From Chloroflexota bacterium (GTDB lineage Bacteria > Chloroflexota > Chloroflexia > Chloroflexales > Chloroflexaceae), in the NCBI GenBank assembly GCA_030550625.1, contig JAUQOZ010000056.1:1-44936 (forward strand): 44,936 nt of DNA, in the 5' to 3' direction. Numbering within the stretch: the stretch's first letter is position 1; every line of letters starts with the position of its first letter. The notes under the pieces are model-generated. The model was not told the origin of the DNA. It did not search any database and worked only from the letters and a program-made list of their open reading frames with translations. A program made the position numbers and the translations under genes. This document shows, one piece after another, positions 32,762-39,125 of this stretch.

Positions 32762-33535
32762 ATGCGTGCTCGATATGCAGTTGCCCTGCTGTTCCTCCTT
32801 AGCCTGTGGTGCGCAACCATAGCGACGCCGCCGGCGCCGCTTGCAGCGCAAACCGACGTTCGCCAACAAGTGATCGAATTGACCAACCAGATCCGGATGG
32901 CCAACGGCCTGCCGCCGCTCAAGCGCAACGATAACCTGCAAGCCGCCGCCGATTGGATTACGCAAGACAATGCTAGCCATAATACGCTGTCGCACACTGA
33001 TAGCCTTGGGCGCGGTATTGACCAGCGGTTTCCTTATTTCGAGTACAACGACTATGCGCTGGCCGCCGAGAATCTAGCGGCAGGGTACACAACGCCAGAT
33101 GCGGTTATGGATGGTTGGATGAACAGCGGCGGCCATCGCGATAACATCCTGCGCGCCGGCCTCTGTGAAATCGGCGCCGGCTACACCTATCAGAGCACGA
33201 CTATCTATAAACACTATTGGTCGCAGACCTTTGGCTGTCGCTGGAATACCTACCCGGTTGTGATCAACGGTGAAGCAGCAGTGACCGGGTCGGTGCATGT
33301 CAACCTCTACATCTACGGCGCCGACTGGGCGCAACAGATGCGGCTGAGCAACGACGGCATCAACTGGACGGATTGGATGCCGTATCAATCCACCTATAAC
33401 TGGACGCTGCTCGATGGCAGCGGCGAGCGCACGGTCTTCGTAGAGATACGCAACGGCACAACCGTCTATCTCAATAGTGACACGATTATCTTGATTGGCC
33501 CGCACCGGTTGTTTGTGCCGTTGGTGGTGCGGTAG
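32762..33535 (+). CDS. Secreted CAP (SCP/PR1-like) domain protein
   Basis: 257 residues. A signal peptide covers about 1-30 (cleavage near PLAAQ/T). The CAP domain spans about 35-160: LTNQIRMANGLPPLKRN, LQAAADWITQDNASHNTLSHTDSLGRG, AAENLAAGYTTPDAVMDGWMNSGGHRDNIL and EIGAGYTY. The histidine and glutamate cavity residues of the family are visible (LSHTD, AENL and GHRDNIL). A C-terminal beta-rich segment of about 85 residues (NLYIYGADWAQQMRLSNDGINWTDW) is extra and may bind to the surface. Bacterial CAP proteins are extracellular and their activity is mostly unknown. GAGGAT precedes the ATG. Confidence 0.9.
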   Translation: MRARYAVALLFLLSLWCATIATPPAPLAAQTDVRQQVIELTNQIRMANGLPPLKRNDNLQAAADWITQDNASHNTLSHTDSLGRGIDQRFPYFEYNDYALAAENLAAGYTTPDAVMDGWMNSGGHRDNILRAGLCEIGAGYTYQSTTIYKHYWSQTFGCRWNTYPVVINGEAAVTGSVHVNLYIYGADWAQQMRLSNDGINWTDWMPYQSTYNWTLLDGSGERTVFVEIRNGTTVYLNSDTIILIGPHRLFVPLVVR

Positions 33536-33555
33536 CGAGTGATCATCTGTCGTTT

Positions 33556-33736
33556 GTCATTGCGAAGGAGGAGCGGCCCGCGCCGAGCGGGGGCCGCCCG
33601 ACCGCAGCAATCTCCTGCCTAGGCGGAAGGAATGCCTGAGTGGGATGGTATCGCTGCTGGGGGAAATTGCTTCGCCGCAGGGGGCATAGCAGCGCTTTGC
33701 CCCTACGTGTTGCCCCTCCGCGCGGATCGCAATGAC
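33556..33736. repeat. Dispersed non-coding element, copy A
   Basis: About 180 bp bounded by GTCATTGCG and CGCAATGAC (9-bp terminal inverted repeats). It contains GGCCCGCGCCGAGC and AATTGCTTCGCCGCAGGGGGC blocks, also seen in copy C. It has no coding potential that I can support. The interval 33536-34320 consists almost entirely of such repeats and contains no gene. Confidence 0.7.
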
Positions 33737-33845
33737 CAACGGTGAGCGGGGTGGCATCACCCCTCCCCAGCCATCCTGCGCTGGGTTCAAGGGCGGCCCT
33801 GAAGAGCTGGGCTAGGGTTACGAATCCCACTGTGTGGACTGTAAG

Positions 33846-33978
33846 CCCTCACCCCCAGCCCCTCTCCCACCGCACGGCGGGAGAGGGGGATCTGCTGAGT
33901 GGGTGGAACAGGCACTGCTCGCACTGAAAGCAGCAGCACCCCTCTCCCGCAACGCGGGAGAGGGGACGGGGGTGAGGG
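33846..33978. repeat. Non-coding element with CCCTCACCCCC terminal inverted repeats
   Basis: About 133 bp flanked by CCCTCACCCCC and GGGGGTGAGGG. Each end contains an inner hairpin (CCTCTCCC / GGGAGAGG and CCCCTCTCCCGC / GCGGGAGAGGGG). It lies between copies A and B of the GTCATTGC element. Solo hairpins of this family occur at both ends of the window. Confidence 0.7.
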
Positions 33979-34008
33979 TAAACCGGCCTCGTAAAGTCGT
34001 CAACCGCT

Positions 34009-34130
34009 GTCATTGCGAAGTGGTGCAGTCCCCGCCGTAATCTCCCGCTGAGGCGCGAATGAACACTGTGCGGGTGCGTTCCGTGCTCGGAGGAGATTGC
34101 TTCGCCGCGCTCCGCGCGGCTTGCAATGAC
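34009..34130. repeat. Dispersed non-coding element, copy B
   Basis: About 120 bp bounded by GTCATTGC and GCAATGAC, with the internal GGAGATTGCTTCGCCGCGCTCC block shared in part with copies A and C. Confidence 0.65.
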
Positions 34131-34150
34131 AAACGGTGAGCGGTCTATCT

Positions 34151-34318
34151 GTCATTGCGCGGGAGTGGCGGCCCGCGCCGAGCCGGGGCCGCCCGACCGG
34201 CGCAGTCTCCCGCTTGGGCGGGAGGAAAAACTGAGAGGGATGATACCGCTGATGCAGGAGATTGCTTCGCCGCAGGGGGCAGAGCAGTGCTCTGCCCCTG
34301 CTGCCGGTCTGCGATCAC
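34151..34318. repeat. Dispersed non-coding element, copy C
   Basis: It starts with GTCATTGCGC and shares GGCCCGCGCCGAGC and GGAGATTGCTTCGCCGCAGGGGGC with copy A. Its right end is degenerate (GCGATCAC) and lies only a few bases before the mgtE promoter. Confidence 0.65.
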
Positions 34319-34320
34319 AA

Positions 34321-34349
34321 TTGACAAATCCCCGCTTCAGGCGTATAGT
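34321..34349 (+). promoter_or_regulatory. Strong sigma70 promoter of mgtE
   Basis: TTGACA, a 17-base spacer and TATAGT. Transcription would start near 34356, producing a 250-nt untranslated leader. The -35 begins directly at the edge of repeat copy C. Confidence 0.8.
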
Positions 34350-34355
34350 AATGGA

Positions 34356-34549
34356 GCCTATCAGGCACCGGTAAGACACGATGAGGAACGGAACCGCTAT
34401 GGATAGTAGTCATTCTCGTCAGCGGCAGAGTGTGGTGATAACAATCAACGCATCCACCGGCCTCATCGGTATGTTGCGCCGGCATGAATAGGCTTGCGGC
34501 CTAATCATTGCAACGCACCCCGGTGAGGTTTTCCCCGCCGGGTTTTTCT
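34356..34549 (+). promoter_or_regulatory. Structured mgtE leader with intrinsic terminator, candidate attenuator or riboswitch
   Basis: The leader ends in an intrinsic terminator: CCCGGTG (34519-34525) pairs with CGCCGGG (34536-34542), followed by TTTTTCT, 58 bases before mgtE. Just before it is a long hairpin: GTTGC (34473-34477) with GCAAC (34510-34514), ATGA with TCAT, and TAGGC with GCCTA. CACCGG at 34455-34460 can pair with CCGGTG at 34520-34525 and so could act as an antiterminator. I do not see the conserved core of the Mg2+ M-box or another class that I know. The interpretation as a regulated leader is inference from promoter, terminator and alternative pairing. Confidence 0.55.
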
Positions 34550-34606
34550 GTGTTTGCGTTGCGGTTGTCGCCCCTATGCCGCTGTCAAGATGCGCAGGGG
34601 GTGACA

Positions 34607-35959
34607 ATGACCACGTTTCCAACTCCCCGCCTCGATGAGGTACAGGCGCTTATCGCCGAACAGCGCTGGCTCGATCTGCGAGAGCAACTGTCGCGCTGGC
34701 CCGCCGCAGAAATCGCCGATCTGTTACGCGAGCTTTCCGCTGCCGAGCGGATGCTCGTTTTTCGCGTCTTGCCGCGCGCATTGGCGGGCGAGGTGTTCTC
34801 TTATCTCGAACACGACGATCAATACGAACTGCTCACCAGTCTGAGCTTGGATGAGACGCGCTTGCTGCTCGCCAACCTTAGCCCTGATGACCGCACCCAG
34901 CTATTTGAAGAGCTGCCCGGTCAGGTGACGCAGAAGCTGCTTAATCTGCTCAGTCCCAAGGATTTGCGCGAAGCGCGCCAGTTGCTCGGCTATCCCGAAG
35001 AGAGCGTCGGGCGGTTGATGACGCCTGATTATGTGGCGGTGCGGCCCAATTGGACGATTGCGCGCGCGCTGGAGCATATCCGGCTGCGCGGACGTGATAG
35101 CGAAACGATTGATATCATCTACGTCACCGATGAACAGTGGCGATTGCTTGACGCAATCGAACTGCGCCGCTTTATTTTGGCCGAGCCAACCCAGACTGTG
35201 CGCAGCTTGATGGATGAGAGCTATGTGGTGTTATCGGCCTTCGATGATCGTGAGCGGGCGGTTGAGGCGTTGCGCCGGTACAGTTTGCCGGCGTTGCCAG
35301 TAGTTGACTCGGATGGAGTGTTGGTTGGGATTGTCACCTTCGACGACTTGATCGATGTAGCAGAAGAGGAAGTGACCGAAGACTTCCACCGCAGCGCGGC
35401 GGTTGAGCCATTGCGCGGCAGCTATCTCGAAACGCCGGTGATTGAGTTGGTGCAGAAGCGGGTGCCTTGGCTGGTGGCGCTGGTCTTTGTCAATGTTTTT
35501 TCAGGAGCGGCCATCGCGGCTTTTGAAGAGACGATTGCCGCAGTGGTAGCACTTGTTTTCTTTTTGCCATTGCTGATCGGCAGCGCTGGAAATGCTGGAT
35601 CGCAGTCGGCGACGCTGACGGTGCGCGCCTTGGCGACCGGCGATATTGAGTCGAGTGACTGGTGGCGTTTGCTACTCAAGGAACTCTTGGTTGCAGCCTT
35701 GCTGGGTAGCGCAATGGCCATTGCGGTTGGCTTCCTCGGCGTCATTCGCGTAGGCTGGGAAGTGGCCTTGGTCGTATCGCTGACGATGATTGTACTCGTG
35801 CTGATGGGAAGTTTAATCGGGATGTCTTTGCCCTTTCTGTTACGCAAATTTGGTCTCGATCCAGCAACGGCCAGCGGCCCGCTGGTCACGTCATTGTCGG
35901 ATATTGGCGGGGTGCTGATCTATTTCTCAATTGCAACATGGTTGTTGGGGTTGGGATAA
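34607..35959 (+). CDS. mgtE: Magnesium channel/transporter MgtE
   Basis: 450 residues from the ATG at 34607, with AGGGGG about seven bases upstream. The N-terminal helical domain (about 5-125: LFEELPGQVTQKLLNLLSPKDLREARQLLGYPEESVGRLMT) is followed by two CBS domains (about 130-255; PALPVVDSDGVLVGIVTFDDLIDV), which sense cytosolic Mg2+. About five membrane helices follow, with the pore signature GSAGNAGSQSATLTVRALATGD and the conserved aspartate in TSLSDIGGVLIYF. It imports Mg2+ down its gradient. It sits behind a long leader with a terminator, so expression is probably attenuated. The ABC permease gene starts 111 bases later. Confidence 0.95.
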   Translation: MTTFPTPRLDEVQALIAEQRWLDLREQLSRWPAAEIADLLRELSAAERMLVFRVLPRALAGEVFSYLEHDDQYELLTSLSLDETRLLLANLSPDDRTQLFEELPGQVTQKLLNLLSPKDLREARQLLGYPEESVGRLMTPDYVAVRPNWTIARALEHIRLRGRDSETIDIIYVTDEQWRLLDAIELRRFILAEPTQTVRSLMDESYVVLSAFDDRERAVEALRRYSLPALPVVDSDGVLVGIVTFDDLIDVAEEEVTEDFHRSAAVEPLRGSYLETPVIELVQKRVPWLVALVFVNVFSGAAIAAFEETIAAVVALVFFLPLLIGSAGNAGSQSATLTVRALATGDIESSDWWRLLLKELLVAALLGSAMAIAVGFLGVIRVGWEVALVVSLTMIVLVLMGSLIGMSLPFLLRKFGLDPATASGPLVTSLSDIGGVLIYFSIATWLLGLG

Positions 35960-36070: not shown

Positions 36071-37789
36071 ATGTTCAAACCGCGTACCTTTACTCCTGCG
36101 CCGCCAGCGCAATCGATTTTGACGCGGGCCGATGTTTGGTTGTTGCTCGTACTGATCGGGTTGCTGGCGTTGGTGATCGGCGCTGCCGAAAGCGCGCCGG
36201 CGACGGTGCAGGGGCCAGAGATTGACCTCTCGCTGAGCGCATTGCCGTTTTACGCTTTGCGTTCGGTGGGACGGATGGCGTTAGCCTATGCGCTGTCGTT
36301 TTTGTTCACGATGATCTACGGCTACATCGCGGCTTACAATGCGCGCGCCGAGCGCGTGCTCATTCCGCTGCTCGATGTGTTGCAGAGCGTGCCGATCTTG
36401 TCGTTTCTACCGGTGGTCTTGCTCAGCCTGAGCACAGTGCTGCCGGAGGCGCTGGCAGTGGAGTTGACCGCGGTCGTGCTCATCTTCACCAGCCAAGTCT
36501 GGAATATGACCTTTGCGTGGTACCAGTCGCTAACCACCATCCCGCGCGAGCTGCGCGAAGCGAGCAGCATCTTTCGCTTCTCGCGCTGGCAACGCTTTAC
36601 CACGCTCGAATTTCCGTTTGGCGCGCTGGCGTTGGTCTGGAACAGCATGATGAGCTGGGCCGGCGGCTGGTTTTTCCTTATGGCCGCCGAAATCTTTACG
36701 TTGGGTGATCGCGATTTTCGCCTGCCGGGGTTGGGAGCGTTCTTGCAAACCGCTGCAAACGCCGGTGATTTGGCTGCGATTGGGTGGGGCATTCTCACGC
36801 TGGTAGCGGTGATTGTCATCCTTGACCAGTTTGTCTGGCGACCGCTGCTGGCGTGGGCCAGCCAGTTCCGGCTGGAGATGATTGAACGCGATGATGAAGA
36901 GTCACAGTCGTGGTTCTACGATTTGATCCGGCAGTCGGTAGTGGCCGGCTGGGCGGGAGGCTTGGCAGGAACGATCGATCGCTTCATTTCGCGCCGGCTG
37001 AGCCGGCGTCCAGCGCCCGATCCCTATCTCAGCGCCTCAACCCGGCGTTCGTGGTGGGGATGGGGGCTGGTTGCAGTGAGTGTGGTCTTGGTTGGCTGGG
37101 GTGGCTGGGTTGGGAGCAACTTGCTGCTGAGCGTGCCGCTAGCGCAATGGGGCGAAATAGTGCTGAGCGTGGGTGCAACGATGGTGCGCGTGGCGACGGC
37201 GATGGCCATTGCCCTGCTCTGGACGGTGCCGGTCGGGGTGTTTATCGGCACCCGCCCGCGGGCAGCGGCCATCTTGCAGCCAATCGTACAGATCGCGGCG
37301 TCGGTGCCGGCAACGGCTCTCTTCCCAGTGTTGGTGTTAGTCTTTCTGGCCCTGCCCGGCGGGCTCAACTTGGCTGCCGTCGTCTTGATGATGCTCGGCA
37401 CCCAATGGTACATCCTGTTTAACGTGATTGCCGGCGCGGCAGCCATTCCGCAAGACTTGCGATACACCAGCGAACTGCTGCAACTGCACGGCTGGGAACG
37501 CTGGCGCACGCTGATTTTGCCCGGTCTGTTTCCCTATCTGATCACCGGTCTGATCACGGCCAGCGGCGGGGCGTGGAATGCCAGCATTGTCGCTGAGTAC
37601 GTAGTCTTTAACCAGCAAACCTACCAGACGATCGGGATTGGGGCGCAGATTGCGGCGGCGACGGCTGATGGCGATTTTGCTGGCCTGTTTGCCGCCACGT
37701 TGGCCATGATTATCGCCGTGGTCGCGATCAACCGGCTGGTCTGGCGGCGCTTATACCGGCTGGCCGAAACCAAGTATCGCATGGAATAG
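36071..37789 (+). CDS. ABC importer permease with two fused transmembrane domains
   Basis: 572 residues. Two binding-protein-dependent permease domains lie in tandem (about 60-260 and 355-565). Each has the EAA-loop that docks the ATPase: REASSIFRFSRWQRFTTLEFPF and the later SELLQLHGWERWRTLILPGLFPYLITGL. A hydrophilic linker (about 268-325) joins them. The halves resemble the nitrate/sulfonate/bicarbonate (NrtB/SsuC/TauC) group, which usually forms dimers of separate chains; here one chain supplies both. Together with the ATPase 22 bases downstream it forms an importer, but no substrate-binding protein is encoded nearby, so the substrate is unknown. Confidence 0.9.
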   Translation: MFKPRTFTPAPPAQSILTRADVWLLLVLIGLLALVIGAAESAPATVQGPEIDLSLSALPFYALRSVGRMALAYALSFLFTMIYGYIAAYNARAERVLIPLLDVLQSVPILSFLPVVLLSLSTVLPEALAVELTAVVLIFTSQVWNMTFAWYQSLTTIPRELREASSIFRFSRWQRFTTLEFPFGALALVWNSMMSWAGGWFFLMAAEIFTLGDRDFRLPGLGAFLQTAANAGDLAAIGWGILTLVAVIVILDQFVWRPLLAWASQFRLEMIERDDEESQSWFYDLIRQSVVAGWAGGLAGTIDRFISRRLSRRPAPDPYLSASTRRSWWGWGLVAVSVVLVGWGGWVGSNLLLSVPLAQWGEIVLSVGATMVRVATAMAIALLWTVPVGVFIGTRPRAAAILQPIVQIAASVPATALFPVLVLVFLALPGGLNLAAVVLMMLGTQWYILFNVIAGAAAIPQDLRYTSELLQLHGWERWRTLILPGLFPYLITGLITASGGAWNASIVAEYVVFNQQTYQTIGIGAQIAAATADGDFAGLFAATLAMIIAVVAINRLVWRRLYRLAETKYRME

Positions 37790-37811
37790 TTGATAGTTAG
37801 GGAGCAATCGC

Positions 37812-39125
37812 ATGCTGCAGGCACAGCCAAAACCGCTGGTGGAATTGATGGGAGTATCGCAACGCTACGGACGGGGCGAGCGCCAGTTTACCGCCATTCA
37901 CGATATTAACCTGACGATTGCCGAAGGCGAATTTGTGGCCCTGCTCGGCCCGTCGGGCTGCGGCAAGAGCACGCTCTTGCGCATCATCACCGGTCTCAAC
38001 CGGCCCAGCGAGGGCTTGGTGCGCTATCGGGGCAAGGCGCTGGAGGGGGTGAATCCGTATGCGACGATCGTCTTCCAGACCTTTGCTCTCTTCCCGTGGC
38101 TGACGGTGGAAGAGAATGTCGCGGTGGCGTTAAAAGCGCGGGGTGCATCTGACGCGGAAGCGCACCGGCGAGCGGTGGAGTTGATCGATCTGGTTGGCCT
38201 TGACGGTTTCGAGCAAGCCTATCCGCGTGAGTTGTCGGGCGGTATGCGGCAGAAGGTTGGCATTGCCCGCGCGTTGGCGGTTGATCCAGAGCTGCTCTGC
38301 CTTGATGAGCCGTTCAGTGCGCTCGATGTGCTGAGCGCCGAGACGCTGCGCGGCGAAGTGCTGGAATTGTGGACGGGCGGTAGCTTGAAGATTCGAGCGG
38401 TGTTAATGGTCAGCCACAATATCGAAGAGGCGGTCTTTATGGCTGACCGGATCGTGGTGATGGACAAAAATCCGGGCCGGATTGTGGCCGAAGTACCGGT
38501 TAACTTGCCCCATCCGCGCGATCGCAAATCCGATGCGTTTGCTGCCTTGGTGGCGCGGGTATACGCAGTGCTGGCCGGGCAGACCCAACCCGAAGCGATT
38601 GAGTACGGCACCGAGCCGGGCCAAAACGGGCAAACGCGCTTGCTGCCGGCGGCATCGGTCACGGCGCTGGCCGGTCTGCTCGAACAGGCCAACGCCACCG
38701 ATGACGAGCGCGATCCGCTGGCGAAACTGCAAGATGAACTGGGTTTAGACCTCGACCAGATGCTGCCGCTGATCGAGGCTGCTGAGCTGCTCGGGTTTGC
38801 GCGGGTTGAGAGCGGCAATCTGATCCTGACGCCGTTGGGGGAAGCGTTTGCCGAAGCCAGCATCCAAACCCGCAAAGAGATTTTTGCCTCGCGGTTGCGG
38901 CGGTTGCCCTTCTTCCGCTGGATGCTACGCATGATCGCCGCTGCTGACAACCAATCGTTGCGCTGGGAGGTCTTGCTCACCGCGCTCGAACCGGAATTTC
39001 CGTCCGAGGTAGCCGAACGGCAACTCGACATCGCGCTGGAATGGGGGCGCTACGCTGAACTGTTTGCGTATGATGACGCAGAGGGAAGATTCTTCCTTGA
39101 AACGCCGGCAGTCACAGCGAAGTAA
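37812..39125 (+). CDS. ABC importer ATPase with C-terminal AAA-associated domain
   Basis: 437 residues with GGGAG before the ATG. The ABC domain (about 8-250) has Walker [10 protein letters not shown] at 46-54, Q-loop [10 protein letters not shown], signature [15 protein letters not shown] and Walker [13 protein letters not shown], then the H-loop MVSHNIEEA. It is of the NrtD/SsuB/TauB kind. After a linker, about 300-430 form the AAA-associated C-terminal domain ([40 protein letters not shown] and [18 protein letters not shown]) often found on nitrate/sulfonate-type ATPases; it may regulate transport. Its stop is only two bases from that of the convergent membrane protein gene. Confidence 0.92.

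Follow-up and report, generated by a model that had tools for sequence, protein, structure and literature searches.

The window, i.e. the whole stretch of 44,936 nucleotides analyzed, contains on the forward strand mgtE (34607-35959), coding for a protein with MgtE_N, CBS and MgtE domains, followed on the same strand by the genes for a double ABC permease (36071-37789), likely in the same operon and with relatives located behind M-boxes, and for an ABC ATPase with an AAA_assoc_C domain (37812-39125). Ahead of mgtE, a promoter, a leader of about 250 nt, an interrupted hairpin and an intrinsic terminator are found in this order, and the arrangement is conserved. Conservation was evaluated on 8 genomes of the genus, the window genome included, the other seven leaders being 75-97% identical. 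A promoter had been claimed at the start of the leader in a preliminary description of this DNA, and was found: TTGACA-17-TATAGT (34321-34349, forward strand) is the sole sigma-70-like site within 0.9 kb, with 11 of 12 matches (0.1 in shuffles), and is kept in 7 of the 8 congeners. The leader RNA (34356-34556) is predicted by folding to be more stable than shuffled sequences (z -2.7). Further upstream, the intergenic region contains repeated GGAGATTGCTTCGCCGC blocks at 34090-34110 and 34257-34275, probably a dispersed repeat.

The leader has the length given in the preliminary description, but the term "untranslated", used there, does not hold, since a conserved upstream ORF (uORF), predicted to be translated and previously overlooked, lies inside it. 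This uORF (34399-34491, forward strand; leader peptide MDSSHSRQRQSVVITINASTGLIGMLRRHE, stop TAG) is composed of 30 codons and is open and in frame, from the same start to the same TAG, in all 8 congeners; the genus alignment shows no gap among its 93 columns, as against 6 gap columns in the next 27. A GAGG Shine-Dalgarno (SD) sequence is located 12 nt 5' of the start, within an invariant block, and the predicted transcription start is only about 40 nt from the uORF. The conserved peptide start corresponds to codons 2-9 (34402-34425, forward strand), D-S-S-H-S-R-Q-R with an AGT-AGT-CAT core. Codons 3, 4, 6, 8 and 9 are invariant in the genus, as are codons 20-23; codon 2 differs by a single synonymous substitution, and changes at codons 5 and 7 are confined to one or two species. 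The excess of third-position changes over the genus is modest (15 variable third positions versus 10 and 8). At the sequence level, a short leader ORF with an SD and a frame conserved in 8 of 8 genomes is consistent with an attenuator. In other genera, mgtE is preceded by the same arrangement, with diverged peptides such as MDVSSHSRRRGVAHTT.. (L011-L013), MDGSHTGQRRSGAP.. (L015) and MDSSYPPRRRRAAP.. (L018).

The intrinsic terminator, placed near 34518-34549 by the preliminary description, was located by folding at 34519-34547 (forward strand), as a hairpin followed by a U tract, with sequence CCCGGTGAGG-TTTT-CCCCGCCGGG-TTTTT; it is recovered by folding in the window and in all 7 congeners, while a pattern scanner did not list it. 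The interrupted hairpin at 34473-34514 (forward strand) also folds as had been proposed, and carries the uORF stop codon in its 5' arm. Three further forward-strand segments can be recognized. Segment 1, CGATGAGG (34379-34386), holds the GAGG of the uORF and is invariant; segment 2, CCTCATCGG (34461-34469), reaches from the end of codon 21 into codon 24, is likewise invariant and would act as the switch strand; segment 3, CCGGTGAGG (34520-34528), is the 5' arm of the terminator. Segment 2 (34461-34468) is predicted to pair with segment 1 in a protector helix, present in the minimum folding energy (MFE) structure, and, alternatively, to form with segment 3 an antiterminator helix of 9 bp, of which the interrupted hairpin is the apical part. 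All 8 genomes have both helices, perfectly paired and without any change. In the preliminary description the antiterminator role was assigned to CACCGG (34455-34460); its pairing with CCGGTG is possible, but in folding it is outcompeted by the adjacent 9-bp helix between segments 2 and 3.

Protector, antiterminator and terminator helices are mutually exclusive, as indicated by folding and by a comparison of own and swapped terminator arms. In the latter, performed over 19 lineage groups, pairing of the uORF end gave -15.9 with the own arm and -13.4 (sd 0.6) with swapped arms (0 of 2000 permutations). In most Chloroflexia loci, codons 20-23 mark the beginning of the paired segment, and most other loci examined have a terminator-like hairpin at a distance of 17-40 nt on the 3' side of the uORF stop. 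Altered yet complementary pairs are found, such as UCUCGCCAG/CUGGCGAGA (L051, L052) and GCUUACC/GGUAAGC (L050). Covariation in mgtE leaders, the check proposed in the preliminary description, was seen only in part within the genus: the segment helices, being perfect and invariant, do not covary there, whereas 4 pairs of the apical hairpin are changed on both sides (6 cells with two-sided changes versus 2.0 in shuffles, a value reached by 2-3 of 500 shuffles).

The effect of ribosome position was also evaluated by folding. The antiterminator is the MFE structure of its stretch in 8 of 8 genomes before the 3' arm of the terminator is made, with energies from -29 to -36 kcal/mol. When only the RNA downstream of the ribosome was folded, the terminator probability in the window ranged from 0.06 to 0.66 with the ribosome at codons 1-16, and from 0.99 to 1.00 from codon 17 on. 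For three of the 8 congeners (G003, G004 and G006), the terminator prevails at equilibrium for almost all placements of the ribosome, so that a switch would there need co-transcriptional folding. Moreover, in folds where pairing across a stalled ribosome was permitted, the protector helix was restored and the terminator was kept at nearly all positions. Both the equilibrium preference and the re-forming protector helix limit the attenuator model.

A pattern search identified the uORF also before an ABC-transporter operon (L041) and before a MgtE_N/CBS protein (L048). In these, as well as in L010-L013, a canonical M-box (RF00380, 107-121 bits) is located 5' of the uORF. M-boxes were then collected from 28 of 158 genomes of the class and 43 of 400 genomes of the phylum, for 51 loci altogether, and a uORF was scored when an ORF of 12-70 codons with an ATGGA start and an SD was present 30-420 nt downstream; this criterion relies on just the five initial ORF bases, and leaves aside the remaining peptide motif. 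Such a uORF is present at 36 of the 51 loci, as compared to a mean of 4.3 and a maximum of 11 in 200 simulations, and to 5 on the opposite strand. The peptides include MDAGPSSSHRR.., MDDGSHRSQRRR.., MDEGGHRSQRR.. and MDVSSHSRRR.., and most of these uORFs are then followed by a second intrinsic terminator. Because real M-boxes are directly followed by related uORFs in relatives, the link of the mgtE leader with magnesium was retained. Within the genus, three congeners carry M-box and uORF together at a second locus (L051 in G006, L050 in G003, L059 in G002); in the window genome and the four other congeners no M-box was found at all. Thermogemmatispora loci (L113, L119, L122, L125, L130) show a MDAGPSSSRR uORF, which in L113 precedes a PRC-barrel protein; L113 and L119 were checked, and gave no M-box match. 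A MAG labelled Proteobacteria (L103) contains a uORF identical to that of Chloroflexota genome G187 (L093), and is probably mislabelled or a mixed bin.

For serine close to the start, the related uORFs mostly use AGT, in frame, and this holds even for the GC-rich actinomycetes. There, AGT accounts for 55 of 79 Ser codons at positions 2-12 of the uORFs, for none of the 57 Ser codons farther downstream in them, and for 7% of the Ser codons in the longest ORFs of these loci. Of 26 [GS]H dicodons in Chloroflexota, 24 are written AGTCAT or GGTCAT. The phase with the start codon is kept at varying distances from it, for [AG]GTCA or AGT in 24 of 25 cases in Chloroflexota and for AGT in 55 of 55 in actinomycetes. 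This argues for selection at the codon level on a translated ORF, and a pure RNA motif was discarded for the same reason. A general signature of NNU wobble codons was also considered and fits only partially: Asp is mostly GAC in Chloroflexota and Pro is rarely CCT in both groups, so the bias appears specific to AGT, and in Chloroflexia to GGT and CAT too. Slow decoding of AGT at low Mg2+ would be our guess at its cause.

When 85,000 species genomes were scanned for an SD followed by MDxGPSS in AGY codons, 34 matches were obtained. About 25 of the 34 are short ORFs and, by our own reading of the loci, all but about 2 of these stand behind an M-box or before a gene for a Mg2+/divalent-cation transporter or a related gene. 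The contexts include an M-box and NRAMP in Streptomyces, an M-box and MgtE in a Bacillota MAG, NRAMP in Nitrospirota, a P-type cation ATPase in Tissierella, CorA in Ventrimonas and CNNM in a Clostridia MAG. Related uORFs free of an M-box precede NRAMP, MgtA-type ATPase, CorA, CNNM and MgtE genes. In actinomycetes, 24 M-boxes were found in 10 of 198 sampled genomes, with a related uORF, including the MSPGDSPY.. type, at about 22 of the 24, a figure less strict than the 36 of 51 because actinomycete starts were partly picked by motif search; one of these M-boxes precedes a PE gene (L171). Among 118 genomes of one clostridial class, 25 contain M-boxes, 26 altogether, about 5 of them with a related uORF, and the strict pattern ATGGAYNNNGGNCCNAGYAGY was present in 2 of 291 genomes, its exact form being rare there. 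The peptides were grouped into the types MDx[GS]SHS.RRR, MDxGPSS and MxxxDSP, and the family is proposed to be defined by an SD, an ATG-GAY start, an in-frame AGT/GGT-CAT or AGT-AGT within 9 codons, a length of about 20-50 codons and a location before a Mg2+/divalent-cation transporter gene. The mgtE uORF shows all of these features of the M-box-associated leader peptide family. The genomes sampled are a part of those known, and a search of the open-access literature produced no description of such a uORF outside mycobacteria.

On these grounds, the mgtE leader is probably a ribosome-mediated transcription attenuator built on the uORF; with somewhat less assurance, gene context and M-box association point to Mg2+ as its signal. 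The sequence itself shows the uORF, its conservation, the three exclusive pairings and the association with M-boxes and with transporters of Mg2+ or divalent cations. As long as the uORF is free of ribosomes, segment 2 would pair with segment 1, the terminator would form and mgtE would be off. A ribosome slowed or lost within the first 14 or so codons, at the MD-SSHS-R motif, would block segment 1 and leave segment 2 free to pair with segment 3 around the apical hairpin; the terminator would be prevented and mgtE would be on. A ribosome reaching the stop codon would cover segment 2 and open the apical hairpin, which contains the stop, so that the terminator would form again and mgtE would be off. 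The likeliest signal would be a low Mg2+ level that affects how the first uORF codons are translated. That the uORF is translated in the source organism, with stalling or drop-off at the motif, and that the leader responds to Mg2+ in this direction, are steps that we infer. The family of the peptide usually stands 3' of an M-box, while the mgtE copy of this genus stands alone, and the best reading of the leader would be that it belongs, although lacking an M-box, to a family of leader peptides for Mg2+ transport that extends across phyla.

The preliminary description, which had already proposed a regulatory leader with terminator and antiterminator alternatives, considered that it could be a diverged M-box or an undescribed metal-sensing leader, and an aptamer directly driving the terminator would indeed suit a location before mgtE, where relatives have M-boxes. 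The alternative structures are upheld; the diverged M-box is not. The Rfam search proposed there, M-box first, was run on 33500-34650, and neither RF00380, at any score up to E=10, nor any other plausible aptamer up to the same limit was found; it produced no significant match to any known class, in agreement with the M-box core not having been seen before. Weak matches, such as those to SAH and STnc230, are on the opposite strand and far below threshold. An M-box was also searched for in the whole assembly of the window, and none was found; the gap of about 40 nt between predicted transcription start and uORF is too short for a 167-nt aptamer, and the conserved positions track a reading frame. 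A metal-sensing aptamer of a new kind is not needed either, the conserved element being most simply a leader peptide with a putative attenuator. A direct aptamer is thus very improbable.

The same attenuator could respond to the supply of charged tRNA (Ser, His or Arg), or to the general translation rate, rather than to Mg2+. Rare AGT codons are conserved and Arg runs are present, and proline-codon uORFs of Salmonella Mg2+ transporter genes respond to proline (PMC3641672); yet the family is tied across phyla to Mg2+ transporters and M-boxes, not to amino-acid genes, and its members do not all share a run of any one amino acid, which makes this signal unlikely. Less probable still is a small protein functional in trans, the hairpins being incidental, as proposed for Rv1805A. 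The peptide start is conserved across large distances, uORFs exist without an M-box too, and a role of the peptide was suggested by the authors of PMC12810186; against this, the C-terminal halves have diverged without loss of complementarity to the terminator, and the synonymous AGT codons are preserved, as would not be expected for a protein product alone.

The attenuator reading resembles several known systems. In mycobacteria, uORF2/Rv1805A is located 3' of an M-box, has a strong SD and was called genus-specific (D'Halluin et al. 2026, PMC12810186); there, a translational platform and Rho-dependent termination are described, with no intrinsic terminator (PMC12810186). Related Chloroflexota loci share with it a small ORF encoded just 3' of an M-box, a strong SD, a conserved start and AGT in the motif, and the actinomycete MSPGDSPY.. 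uORFs include the uORF2/Rv1805A type, with its Pro7. The mgtE leader differs in having no M-box and no Pro7, residue 7 of its peptide being Arg, and in its intrinsic terminator and antiterminator. MgtL of enterobacterial mgtA, which uses a ribosome-destabilising EPDP motif and Rho (PMC11282234), is similar in outline, a leader peptide governing read-through into a Mg2+ transporter gene, whereas the mgtE leader has an intrinsic terminator and its peptide a single early Asp; some relatives have MDD, MDE, MEEGG or MDxGP starts. With one acidic residue and no proline at the start of the window peptide, the known motif for ribosome destabilisation at low Mg2+ is not evident. The tandem attenuators MgtP and MgtM of Salmonella mgtCBR respond to proline and ATP (PMC3641672); they too select alternative stem-loops by uORF translation before Mg2+ genes, with two control layers per leader, but signals, peptide and phylum are different. 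The leader therefore works like MgtL or MgtP and belongs to neither; nor is it an M-box, an element which regulates mgtE-type genes and lies just 5' of the related uORFs in relatives but is absent here. With trp-type attenuation it shares exclusive 1:2, 2:3 and 3:4 pairings and ribosome position as the putative switch; its segment 1, however, is the ribosome-binding region of the uORF and not a set of stall codons, and no codon run for a single amino acid is present.

More broadly, we would give even chances to the proposal that AGT-marked leader peptides (MDxGPSS, MDxSSHS or MxxxDSP, with an in-frame AGT within about 9 codons) are a second Mg2+-responsive control in Chloroflexota, Actinomycetota, Bacillota and Nitrospirota, usually following an M-box and sometimes on their own, upstream of MgtE, NRAMP, CorA, CNNM, MgtA-type and ABC transporters, with the ribosome as the Mg2+ sensor, through slow decoding that depends on the codon or through drop-off. 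If so, bacteria of at least four phyla would check Mg2+ twice per leader, by an RNA aptamer and by the ribosome, and the genus of the window would show the ribosome-based check operating alone. The "genus-specific" Rv1805A would become one branch of a wide family, and Mg2+ sensing by the ribosome outside enterobacteria would be directly testable with a 30-codon reporter.

The family may also help to recognize new Mg2+ transporters by sequence, the ABC system beside mgtE being a possible example. A permease 47% identical to that of the window is located directly behind an M-box and uORF (L118), and L085, L095 and L041 look alike. The ABC system at 36071-39125 is accordingly a candidate Mg2+ transporter, and its genes would probably be switched on together with mgtE.
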